Source: Streptomyces sp. Je 1-79 (lineage in GTDB: Bacteria; Actinomycetota; Actinomycetes; Streptomycetales; Streptomycetaceae). Taken from it: a DNA stretch of 64,000 nt. Position 1 is the stretch's first letter, and each line of letters begins with the position of its first letter. A program made the position numbers and the translations under genes. Under the pieces are notes generated by a model that worked only from the letters and a program-made list of their open reading frames with translations, did not search any database and was not told where the DNA came from. The stretch is taken from NCBI RefSeq assembly GCF_025195125.1, contig NZ_JAMGSL010000005.1:310001-374000 (forward strand), given 5' to 3'. Shown piece after piece: positions 18,909 through 22,073 of this stretch.

Positions 18909-18980
18909 GGGCACGCTCCTGGTGGGTGCGACGTTGTAAGGACGTTGCCGTATGTCGGTTGTACGGCGAACGCATCGCCG

Positions 18981-19019
18981 ATCCTACGGCGCGGGGCCCG
19001 GAAGGCCGCGCCGTAGGAT
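18981..19019. promoter_or_regulatory. 14-bp palindrome with mirrored TAGGAT boxes between divergent genes
   Basis: ATCCTACGGCGCGG (18981-18994) pairs perfectly with CCGCGCCGTAGGAT (19006-19019) around 11 bases. The right arm ends in TAGGAT, a good -10 for the rightward gene at 19066. The left arm gives TAGGAT on the other strand, a good -10 for the leftward dipeptidase gene. Matching -35 boxes are poor, so an activator or an operator role is possible. Confidence 0.55.
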
Positions 19020-19065
19020 GCCCGGAGACTTGGATCATCGGCCGGATCAGGAGCAGAAGCCCATC

Positions 19066-20619
19066 GTGAGCAGCGAGAACGCAGACGCCGAAGAGGTACG
19101 CGCGGAAAAGTCGGAGCAGGCCACGACCGTATGGGACGTGGTGGTCGTGGGCGCCGGTCCGGCAGGCGCTTCCGCGGCGTACGCGGCCGCGGTCGCCGGA
19201 CGCCGTGTGCTGCTCCTGGAGAAGGCCGAACTGCCGCGGTACAAGACCTGCGGCGGCGGCATCATCGGCCCCTCGCGGGACTCGCTCCCGCCCGGTTTCG
19301 AACTGCCCCTGCAGGACCGGGTGCACGCCGTGACCTTCTCCCTGAACGGACGCTTCGCCCGGACGCGCCGCTCGCGCCGGATGCTCTTCGGGCTGGTCAA
19401 CCGGCCCGAGTTCGACGCGGGTCTCGTCGAGCAGGCGCAGAAGGCGGGCGCGGAGCTCCGTACGGGAGTCACCGTCTCCCGGGTCGAGCAGCACGGCCCG
19501 GCCGTGCCGGACCGGCGCACCGTCGCCGTCGTCCTCGCGGACGGCGAGACGGTCCTGGCCAGGGCGGTCGTCGGAGCGGACGGCAGCGCGGGCCGGATAG
19601 GAGCTCACGTCGGCGTGAAGCTCGACCAGGTGGACCTGGGGCTGGAGGCCGAGATCCCCGTTCCGGCCTCGGTGGCCGAGGACTGGAAGGGGCGGGTCCT
19701 CATCGACTGGGGCCCGATGCCCGGCAGCTACGGCTGGGTCTTCCCCAAGGGCGACACGCTCACCGTCGGCGTCATCTCGGCGCGTGGCGAGGGTGCGGCC
19801 ACCAAGCGCTATCTGGAGGACTTCATCGCCCGGCTCGGGCTCGCGGGCTTCGAGCCGGCCATCTCCTCCGGGCACCTGACGCGCTGCCGTAGCGACGACT
19901 CGCCGCTGTCGCGCGGCCGGGTGCTGGTCTGCGGTGACGCGGCGGGGCTCCTGGAGCCGTGGACGCGGGAGGGTATCTCCTTCGCGCTGCGCTCGGGCCG
20001 GCTCGCGGGGGAGTGGGCGGTACGGATCGCCGAGGCGAACGACGCCGTCGACGCGCGCCGTCAGGCGCTGAACTACGCCTTCGCCATCAAGGCGGGGCTG
20101 GGCGTCGAGATGGCGGTCGGGCGGCGGATGCTCGCGCTGTTCGAGCGTCGGCCGGGGCTGTTGCACGCGACGATCACCGGTCTGCGTCCGGCGTGGAACG
20201 CGTTCACGGACATCACCCGCGGCTCGACCACCCTTGCCGGTCTCGTCCGGTCGAACGGCATCGCGCGGCGGGCGCTCGACGTCCTGGACCGCCGGATGGC
20301 GCCGACCGACGGCATGACGCTCCGGGGCGCGGCCCAGTCGGGCCCGACGTCGGCTGACGCGGATGTCTCGGATCCGGCCGAGCTGACGGGTGCGGTGGGG
20401 GTGTCGGGCGCCTCGGATCTGTCGGGCCCGGCGGACGCATCGGACGCGTTGGACGCCGCATCGGACGCAGCGGACGTGTCGGCGCCGGACGCGTCGGACG
20501 TGTCGGCGCCGGATGCGCCGGGCGGGGCGGATGCGTCGGGCGTGGCGGACGCACCTGACGCCTCGGACGCGCCTGACGCGCCTGACGTGCCGGATTCCGG
20601 GGTCAAGCGGTCGGAGTGA
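19066..20619 (+). CDS. geranylgeranyl reductase family FAD-dependent oxidoreductase
   Basis: The protein has 517 residues. It has the dinucleotide-binding motif VVVVGAGPAGASAAYAAA, the PRYKTCGGGIIG segment typical of the GGR family, and VLVCGDAAGLLEPWTREGIS, the FAD-binding GD motif. Such flavoenzymes reduce isoprenoid double bonds or act as hydroxylases. The last 90 residues are a low-complexity Asp/Ala/Ser/Pro tail built from DASD and DAPD-like units, which is absent from typical members. The GTG start has AGGAG upstream. Its 3' end overlaps the convergent deazaflavin reductase by 17 bases. Confidence 0.9.
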   Translation: MSSENADAEEVRAEKSEQATTVWDVVVVGAGPAGASAAYAAAVAGRRVLLLEKAELPRYKTCGGGIIGPSRDSLPPGFELPLQDRVHAVTFSLNGRFARTRRSRRMLFGLVNRPEFDAGLVEQAQKAGAELRTGVTVSRVEQHGPAVPDRRTVAVVLADGETVLARAVVGADGSAGRIGAHVGVKLDQVDLGLEAEIPVPASVAEDWKGRVLIDWGPMPGSYGWVFPKGDTLTVGVISARGEGAATKRYLEDFIARLGLAGFEPAISSGHLTRCRSDDSPLSRGRVLVCGDAAGLLEPWTREGISFALRSGRLAGEWAVRIAEANDAVDARRQALNYAFAIKAGLGVEMAVGRRMLALFERRPGLLHATITGLRPAWNAFTDITRGSTTLAGLVRSNGIARRALDVLDRRMAPTDGMTLRGAAQSGPTSADADVSDPAELTGAVGVSGASDLSGPADASDALDAASDAADVSAPDASDVSAPDAPGGADASGVADAPDASDAPDAPDVPDSGVKRSE

Positions 20620-21064
20620 TCCGGAAGACCGGGTGCTTGGGGGCGATCGCGCGCAGCTCCGCGTCGGTGGAGTCCGGACCGACCCCGCCGAAGAAGATGC
20701 CGACCTCCGCCTTCCACCGCTTCAGGTAGGCGCGGAGGAGAGCGGGCTTCTCGTCGTCGGTCAGCTCCACGGCGGTGAAGGGCTGCGCGTGCTTGCCCAG
20801 GCGCAGCTCGCCGCCGCCGGCCACGCGCATGTTGTGGGTCCACTGGACGTGGCCGCGCGGCGCCATCAGGTACTGGGCGCCGTCCAGAGTGAGCAGGTTG
20901 ACGGGCGTGGTGCGCCATTCACCGCTCTTGCGGCCGCGCACCGCGAGGACGCGGGAGCCCCAGACGCTGATGCCCCGGCGGGTCATCCACGCGACGCTCC
21001 GGTTGAGTACGTTCACCGTGAACCAGCCGGGCTTCATGACGTGGGCGCTGGGCTGAGCGGACAT
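20603..21064 (-). CDS. deazaflavin (F420)-dependent nitroreductase family protein
   Basis: The protein has 153 residues and resembles the Ddn-type split beta-barrel family. Characteristic stretches are GSRVLAVRGRKSGEWRTTPV, YLMAPRGHVQWTHNMR and GGELRLG. Members use reduced F420 to reduce quinones or nitro compounds. GGAGG is five bases before the ATG. It is divergent from a TetR regulator with several repeated motifs in between, so it is probably the target of that regulator. Confidence 0.92.
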   Translation of the reverse strand: MSAQPSAHVMKPGWFTVNVLNRSVAWMTRRGISVWGSRVLAVRGRKSGEWRTTPVNLLTLDGAQYLMAPRGHVQWTHNMRVAGGGELRLGKHAQPFTAVELTDDEKPALLRAYLKRWKAEVGIFFGGVGPDSTDAELRAIAPKHPVFRITPTA

Positions 21065-21086
21065 GGCATCCTCCGAAGGAAACTGT

Positions 21087-21193
21087 GAGCACTGCTCTCG
21101 CTTGAGATCAGTGTGCACGGATCGGCGATCCGAAGCAAGAGCACCGCTCTCGTTTCGCTGCGATGCTCTCGCTTTGATCCGATGCTCTCGTTT
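21087..21193. promoter_or_regulatory. operator array between deazaflavin reductase and TetR genes
   Basis: GCTCTCG(C/T)TT occurs directly at 21094, 21146, 21165 and 21184, the last three exactly 19 bases apart. An inverted relative AAGCAAGAGC is at 21133-21142. Together they form GAGCA-C-TGCTC (21087-21097) and AGAGC-ACC-GCTCT (21138-21150) palindromes. The array fills the space between the divergent starts and is the likely binding site of the adjacent TetR protein. Confidence 0.75.
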
Positions 21194-21230
21194 CAGTGCA
21201 GTGCTCCGGGAAGGTGGCACACTGATCTCC

Positions 21231-21932
21231 ATGACCAGCGTTCAAGGAGCCCGTGCCCGCGCCCGCATCGAGATCACCGCCGCCATCAAGGACGAGGCCC
21301 GCGCCCAGCTCGCCGCCGAAGGTGCCGCCAAGCTCTCCCTGCGTGCCGTCGCCCGCGAGGTCGGCATGGTGTCGTCGGCGCTCTACCGGTACTTCCCCAG
21401 CCGCGACGACCTCCTCACCGCCCTCATCGTCGACGCGTACGACGCCGTCGGCGGGGCGGCGGAGGAGGCCCTGGCCGCCGCCGAGGCCCGGGGCGGCGAC
21501 CACCTCGCCCGCTGGACGGCCGTCTGCCGGGCCGTCCGTACCTGGGCCCTCGCCCATCCCCACGAGTACGCCCTGATCTACGGCTCACCGGTCCCCGGCT
21601 ACTCCGCCCCGCAGGACACCATCGGCCCGGCCTCCCGCGTCGGACTGGTCCTCATCACCATCGCCCGCGACGCCTTCACCGCCGACGGCGTCGCCCCGCC
21701 GCCGCTCCCCGGAGAGCTGCGGCCCGAGGCGGAGCGTATGGCCGCCGATCTGGCCCCCGACCTGCCGCCCGCACTCGTCGTCGCCCTGGTCGCCGCCTGG
21801 TCGCAGCTCTTCGGGCTTGTCTCCTTCGAGGTGTTCGGCCAGTTCCACCGGATCGTCGAGGAACGGGACGAGTTCTTCACGGCGACCGCCGCCCGCCTCG
21901 GCCGCGACATCGGCCTCCTGCCCCGCCCGTGA
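21231..21932 (+). CDS. TetR/AcrR family regulator with WHG domain
   Basis: The protein has 233 residues. The N-terminal helix-turn-helix is LSLRAVAREVGMVSSALYRYFPSRDDLLTAL. The C-terminal ligand domain has RTWALAHPHEYALIYGSPVPG, the WHG-type C-terminal domain of TetR proteins. It should repress the divergent deazaflavin reductase gene and itself through the motif array upstream. No good ribosome-binding site precedes the ATG. The stop codon lies inside the first unit of a tandem repeat. Confidence 0.93.
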   Translation: MTSVQGARARARIEITAAIKDEARAQLAAEGAAKLSLRAVAREVGMVSSALYRYFPSRDDLLTALIVDAYDAVGGAAEEALAAAEARGGDHLARWTAVCRAVRTWALAHPHEYALIYGSPVPGYSAPQDTIGPASRVGLVLITIARDAFTADGVAPPPLPGELRPEAERMAADLAPDLPPALVVALVAAWSQLFGLVSFEVFGQFHRIVEERDEFFTATAARLGRDIGLLPRP

Positions 21933-22050
21933 CCCGGGCCGGACGGCTTCGCCCGTGACCGGTCGGTTCCACCCGTGACCGGCCGGCCCCACCCGTGACC
22001 GCCCGGCGGCGGACCCGCCCGTGACCGGCCGGACGGCCTCGCCCGTTCCG
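21924..22050. repeat. tandem repeats starting at the TetR stop codon
   Basis: CCCGTGACC recurs at 21927, 21952, 21972, 21992 and 22018, each followed by a CGG-rich segment, with a decayed copy at 22042. The period is 20-26 bases. The first TGA is the stop codon of the TetR gene. Nothing coding is visible here. Confidence 0.85.
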
Positions 22051-22073
22051 GCCCGCGGAGGGCCCGGTCGTTC

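Follow-up and report, generated by a model that had tools for sequence, protein, structure and literature searches.

The 166-bp gap between two divergent genes, for an F420-type reductase and a TetR-family regulator, in the window (the whole 64-kb stretch of DNA that was analysed) very probably serves as the operator region of the TetR protein encoded next to it, as judged from comparison with relatives. Operator regions of this type are known for TetR proteins, and the unusual part here is a tandem extension which varies mostly in exact 19-bp steps.

A sequence-only reading had described four direct copies of GCTCTCGYTT, the last three of them 19 bp apart, and one inverted copy located between the reductase and TetR genes. 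Both the arrangement and the location were confirmed. Exact copies lie on the plus strand at 21094, 21146, 21165 and 21184 (spacings of 52, 19 and 19 bp), the inverted copy at 21133-21142 reads GCTCTTGCTT and has one mismatch, and the flanking genes occupy 20603-21064 on the minus strand (reductase) and 21231-21932 on the plus strand (tetR). The gap contains five motif copies with at most one mismatch, while among 300 dinucleotide shuffles 281 contained none and 19 contained one. When any 10-mer was counted with at most one mismatch, the top multiplicity was five in the gap vs. four in a single shuffle and three or fewer in the remaining 299. A general repeat search recovered the 19-bp repeat family at 21146-21206, and Tandem Repeats Finder reported 21146-21194 with a period of 19 and a score of 70. 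Across the whole window the motif (at most one mismatch) was not enriched, with eight copies found and 7.1 expected; hence, the clustering is the unusual feature. Four of the 12 exact copies of GCTCTCGYTT present in the 7.28 Mb genome lie in this gap.

The product of the minus-strand gene, the presumed target, is an F420H2/deazaflavin-dependent reductase of 153 aa, assigned from its open reading frame and from the PF04075 (38.8 bits, cut-off 22) and TIGR00026 (49.3 bits, cut-off 46.35) profiles; GGAGG precedes its ATG at 21064. The presumed binder is a regulator of 233 aa, with the N-terminal TetR helix-turn-helix domain (PF00440, 43.9 bits vs. the cut-off of 24) and the TetR-type C-terminal domain (PF13305, TetR_C_33, 93.4 bits vs. 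the cut-off of 26.8). Among proteins of solved structure, Rv1816 (5d1r) and SCO4313 (2oi8) are closest to it in sequence. Of the 80 named relatives returned, 79 were titled Streptomyces.

A dyad scan with a 3-nt spacer found two dyad-symmetric sites in the divergent gap. The putative operator O1 (21081-21103, plus strand), AACTGTGAGC-ACT-GCTCTCGCTT, has seven of ten arm positions complementary and the direct copy at 21094 as its right half, and it overlaps the predicted reductase transcription start. The putative operator O2 (21133-21155, plus strand), AAGCAAGAGC-ACC-GCTCTCGTTT, with eight of ten arm positions complementary, is a 23-bp dyad composed of the inverted copy (left half) and the copy at 21146 (right half). 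Profiles built from relatives support both sites and are distinct for O1 and O2. Beyond O2, tandem units follow on the plus strand at +19 (GCTCTCGCTT, 21165-21174, detected by the repeat finders and by slot occupancy in relatives), at +38 (GCTCTCGTTT, 21184-21193, detected by the motif search and the slot analysis in relatives) and at +57 (a terminal degenerate GCTCCG, 21203-21208, placed 19 bp after the last unit). Thus an array is present as the earlier reading had it, but not as five equal sites; it is made up of two dyads, two 19-bp units and a degenerate GCTC at 21203. The half-site is exact in all three units at 21146, 21165 and 21184, and the spacers between them differ. The O2 profile of the relatives includes a conserved GCTC 19 bp past O2. 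According to the profiles, the tandem units have a strong right half and an eroded left half, which makes a dimer on every unit uncertain. The unit at 21184 begins 47 bp before the tetR ATG, which is the place of O2 in relatives without the extra units.

Two divergent promoters are predicted in the gap, the one of the reductase being framed by O1 and O2. On the minus strand, the predicted reductase -35 box TTGCTT (21133-21138) lies within the left arm of O2 and is separated by a 17-bp spacer from the predicted -10 box CACACT (21110-21115); both rest on a spacing pattern found in relatives. A search with TTGC fixed in the pattern and spacers of 10-24 bp allowed detected a minus-strand CA(C/G/T)ACT exactly 17 (22 gaps) or 18 (61 gaps) bp from the TTGC of O2 in 83 of 99 gaps. 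A spacer of 17 went with an O1-O2 distance of 52 in 20 gaps and a spacer of 18 with a distance of 53 in 48, other pairs being found in 15 of the 83. If this promoter is predicted correctly, the inverted motif copy reads GCTCTTGCTT because the TTGCTT box sits there. The predicted tetR -10 box, CACACT on the plus strand (21218-21223), begins 13 bp before the ATG, and a plus-strand CANACT 12-15 bp before the tetR ATG was present in at least 67 of the 99 gaps; with the box so near the ATG, the tetR mRNA is predicted to be leaderless or nearly so. A repeat search revealed a perfect 13-nt inverted repeat with arms GAGATCAGTGTGC (21104-21116, plus strand) and GCACACTGATCTC (21217-21229, plus strand), which include the predicted reductase and tetR -10 boxes, respectively, so with both promoter predictions accepted the repeat would be a pair of divergent -10 regions. 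The conserved -35/-10-like pattern thus fits operators placed over both promoters, which are predicted ones: a generic sigma-70 scan of the gap reported no promoter, and the same scan expects almost none in shuffles. A separate palindrome, GGATCGGCGATCC, lies at 21119-21131 in the predicted reductase promoter spacer and was absent in 16 other gaps compared.

The locus encoding TetR and the F420-type reductase is widespread in the genus and family of the window. A genus search and a named genome scan yielded 110 gaps (window included), which were reduced to 100 by identity and to 99 by k-mer similarity. Counting of copies in relatives with the same gene pair showed that the array is not absent from them: at least one same-strand half-site (at most one mismatch) was found in 99 of 99 gaps, at least two in 77 and at least three in 19, the window being included. 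In total, the 99 gaps contained 202 such half-sites vs. a shuffle mean of 4.6 and maximum of 10. Their commonest spacings were 53, 52, 19 and 38 bp, and spacings of 57 and 76 bp occurred three times each. The O1-O2 distance was 52 or 53 bp in 71 of the 83 gaps scored. The commonest layout consists of two dyads and a GCTC half-site 19 bp on, further 19-bp units being a variable add-on.

The dyads were also found beyond this sample. In 17 of 20 further loci (L134-L153), where the TetR match is more distant or split, two dyads are separated by 52 or 53 bp; the other three have one dyad (L134), three in another layout (L136) and none (L151, whose contig ends inside tetR). Among 42 family-level loci (L167-L208, some from the same genus), at least one dyad was detected in 40 and at least two in 35. 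No dyad was found at the L202 and L206 loci (TetR identity of 53 and 51%), and only one at L198 and L207, with no reductase found beside either. At four loci (L014, L022, L043, L050) the lack of a reductase is explained by contig ends immediately upstream of tetR. One of them, L043, is titled Microtetraspora glauca, yet the gap upstream of its tetR is the same as in L014 from the genus of the window, which suggests a mislabelled or misclassified strain. The divergent reductases of the relatives fall into two identity classes, approximately 76-89% and 47-60%, at TetR identities of 67-84%; the target gene may thus have been replaced while the operator was conserved.

The distance between O2 and the tetR ATG was analyzed in the 93 of 99 gaps with a single O2 (six were left out) and clusters at 46+19k bp. 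The k=0 class, within 1 bp, is the commonest (54/93), and the window has k=2. Of the 34 gaps with k of at least 1, 25 fit the series within 1 bp and nine do not, which gives a naive binomial p of 1e-13 that ignores relatedness. The slots expected at 19-bp steps were occupied: for k of 1-4 and a residual of at most 2 bp, on-phase slots matched the half-site with up to four mismatches in 38 of 44 cases vs. 15 of 616 off-phase windows. Poor matches (4-5 mismatches) were noted in the second slot of L039, L073, L077 and L090 and in the first slot of L115 and L117, and the slots of L113 were out of phase. The tetR-proximal slot, 45-47 bp before the ATG, contained a copy (at most three mismatches) in 20 of 35 non-minimal gaps, one of which has k=-1. 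The number of extra units per relative ranges from 0 to 4, apparently more in a few, and mostly in one register. A FastTree phylogeny built from all 99 TetR proteins, with 43 weak branches among its 96 inner ones, implies at least 19 changes of copy class, counted with 83 rows labelled, 16 of 99 unlabelled and classes of three or more merged. The nearest relatives of the window by path, L011 and L010, both have k=0.

The proposal that the array is the operator region of the adjacent TetR was borne out by comparison as very probable, since the motif is conserved with the TetR subfamily: it is kept beside different divergent genes, it is missing at four paralogues and its dyad is nearly unique in the genome of the window. 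The tetR gene of L204 (58% identity) faces an MMPL-family transporter gene (PF03176) and that of L196 (57%) faces an alpha/beta hydrolase gene (PF00561), and both gaps contain two dyads and the 19-bp step. The genome of L204 (G222, contig C3) also encodes a closer TetR relative (70%), and the two regulators, sharing the kind of dyad, may cross-regulate. No dyad was detected at the loci of the four TetR paralogues (L154-L157, 42-45% identity). Residues 45-59 of TetR (GMVSSALYRYFPSRD in the window), which we take to contain the recognition helix as placed by the TetR fold, show little or no variation among the 99 orthologues, and residues 46-54 differ in the four paralogues without a dyad.

A search of the own genome for the full dyad with at most three mismatches returned O1, O2 and one site inside an open reading frame, a palindrome on contig C17 within a frame resembling a histidine kinase by eye. 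A partial-dyad search gave 12 rows, two of which correspond to O1 and O2 and two to the single C17 palindrome. Four further rows (L122-L125) were rejected as other targets as they overlap long open reading frames, which is weak evidence in a genome so GC-rich. In the relatives, six off-locus matches (L158, L160, L161, L162, L163 and L165) were rejected as targets, all six being coding, and L158 and L160 were also dismissed as a second 19-bp array, since a GKSSALEA stretch common to both is encoded there. Inspection covered these six matches in relatives and, in the own genome, eight of the 12 partial-dyad rows and, of the 12 exact half-sites, the four in this gap; within that scope no regulon outside the locus came to light. 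The confinement of the dyad in the own genome, the motif following TetR and the coding nature of the inspected off-locus matches point to a local, self-regulating repressor.

At the genome level, the strict O2 pattern was present in 172 of 295 genomes, and by hand reading, 80 of the 295 lacked any TetR match with an E value below 1e-50. In two of the 80 (G175 and G263) there was a TetR hit beside a dyad after all; among the remaining 78, O2-pattern matches occurred in two (G079 and G277), both coding. The reductase was searched for in 30 of the 80 genomes; none was found in 22, and eight gave fragments or weak matches. The TetR and reductase locus seems to have been lost as a unit, so the co-occurrence of TetR and motif provides no independent evidence and was rejected as proof of binding.

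Comparison of sequences brought out the motif, the dyads, their phasing, the promoter-like geometry and the linkage to TetR; binding by TetR, repression, cooperativity and a ligand are what we infer. With high confidence we propose that a local, self-regulating TetR repressor has its operators and promoters in this gap, from which it would repress both promoters. A TetR dimer would recognise the dyad AARCRAGAGC-N3-GCTCTCGYTT. O2 would cover the -35 box of the divergent reductase promoter and O1 its transcription start, the two operators being 52 bp, or about five helical turns, apart. The tetR promoter, with its -10 predicted at 21218, would be covered by the units at 21184 and 21203. Where relatives lack extra units, their O2 lies 45-47 bp upstream of the tetR ATG, a place from which it could act on both promoters; the window has two 19-bp units in between, which would give each divergent promoter operator elements of its own. 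With units every 19 bp, additional dimers would be able to line up head to tail beside O2, probably cooperatively, each added copy raising the occupancy, and a ligand presumably related to the reductase substrate would release the repressor. Of the sequence-only interpretation, the operator identity is thus supported, and the cooperative binding that it suggested, here of more dimers by the tandem extension, is a natural hypothesis to which we give about an even chance, the 19-bp phasing being only suggestive. More speculatively, TetR might nucleate on O2 and extend in 19-bp steps as a head-to-tail row of dimers along the eroded half-sites, with the number of units, which has repeatedly risen and fallen in Streptomyces, acting as an evolvable rheostat. 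If this doubtful extension were true, unit number would set the strength and steepness of repression and separate the control of the two divergent promoters.

Possibly only O1 and O2 matter and the units are functionless by-products of slippage, a less probable view which is compatible with the identity of the operator and opposes the tandem-dimer part of the preferred explanation. It accords with k=0 being the commonest class (54 of 93 single-O2 gaps within 1 bp), with the degenerate left halves of the other copies and with the tetR-proximal slot being occupied in only 20 of 35 non-minimal gaps. However, the half-site is unaltered in all three units of the window although the spacers vary, the on-phase slots are occupied in 38 of 44 cases against 15 of 616 off-phase (k of at most 4 and residual of at most 2 bp only), GCTC 19 bp past O2 is conserved in the O2 profile and the copy class changed at least 19 times on the tree. 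It is similarly uncertain, and on balance rather unlikely, that TetR binds each dyad of 23-27 bp as a dimer of dimers, in the manner of QacR or CprB, and that the 19-bp step reflects that packing; this is a variant of the tandem-dimer explanation. In QacR-type pairs the offset between the two dimers is small, unlike the 19-bp step, which speaks against it. In its favour, TetR, SimR and DesT have sites of 15-17 bp, shorter than this dyad, and QacR, CgmR, MS6564 and CprB use 22-32 bp and two dimers (PMC4150764).

Binding of the array by another regulator, an activator or a developmental one, instead of the adjacent TetR is very improbable. The tandem part is a direct repeat, and BldC is described as binding direct repeats as cooperative multimers (PMC5859096). 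A shared regulator should nevertheless have further sites, and the off-locus matches inspected (six in relatives and one own-genome dyad) are coding; moreover, the motif is kept with TetR where the divergent gene is another one.

Several operators per TetR regulator are already known, and the 19-bp phased array of variable copy number looks like a new variant. The sequence-only reading had taken one site to be the usual number; ActR and SCO7222, however, have three putative operators per gap and gave three EMSA shifts each (PMC3511530), which makes several sites per TetR regulator ordinary. The SCO7222/SCO7223 and ActR systems of S. coelicolor resemble the window in having a divergent TetR regulator and neighbour with three operator repeats in a short gap, whereas SCO7222 protects three discrete regions, its sites there being TGGAACGNCGTTCCA palindromes, and the parts of the description consulted contain no 19-bp phased series of variable copy number (PMC3511530). 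QacR and CprB share long operators, two dimers per site and cooperative binding, but the two CprB dimers occupy opposite sides of one 22-bp site (PMC4150764), whereas the window has direct 19-bp units. BldC, likewise from Streptomyces, forms cooperative multimers on direct repeats in sites of variable length, but it is MerR-like, not TetR, and has a wider regulon (PMC5859096). For MAB_4384 one 27-bp palindrome is reported (PMC5895659). Among open-licence papers judged by title and the start of the abstract, none described this pair of genes or a TetR array with 19-bp phasing, and a literature search by words of the operator sequence returned no bacterial work by title. The TetR/CamR repressor EthR is said to octamerise cooperatively on the mycobacterial ethA-ethR operator; its target is a divergent redox enzyme, as in the window, and the sequence and layout of its operator differ from those of the array.

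Operator number and phasing are usually changed by engineers; here they vary among natural relatives with the same repressor. Such natural alleles would make dose, steepness and autoregulation measurable against the number of operators. The analysis also provides a predicted operator for a TetR_C_33 protein, apparently uncharacterised so far, that regulates an F420-type reductase in the proposed scheme.

Further repeats were noticed outside the gap. A 28-nt repeat with the core CCGTGACCGGCCGG occurs downstream of the tetR stop, ahead of a histidine kinase gene (21939-22056), in five imperfect copies of the same orientation at steps of 20, 20, 26 and 24. On the other side, a geranylgeranyl-reductase-like gene (18952-20619) converges on the F420-type reductase gene, and its product has a long low-complexity Ser/Ala/Asp/Pro tail encoded over short tandem repeats (20390-20619).
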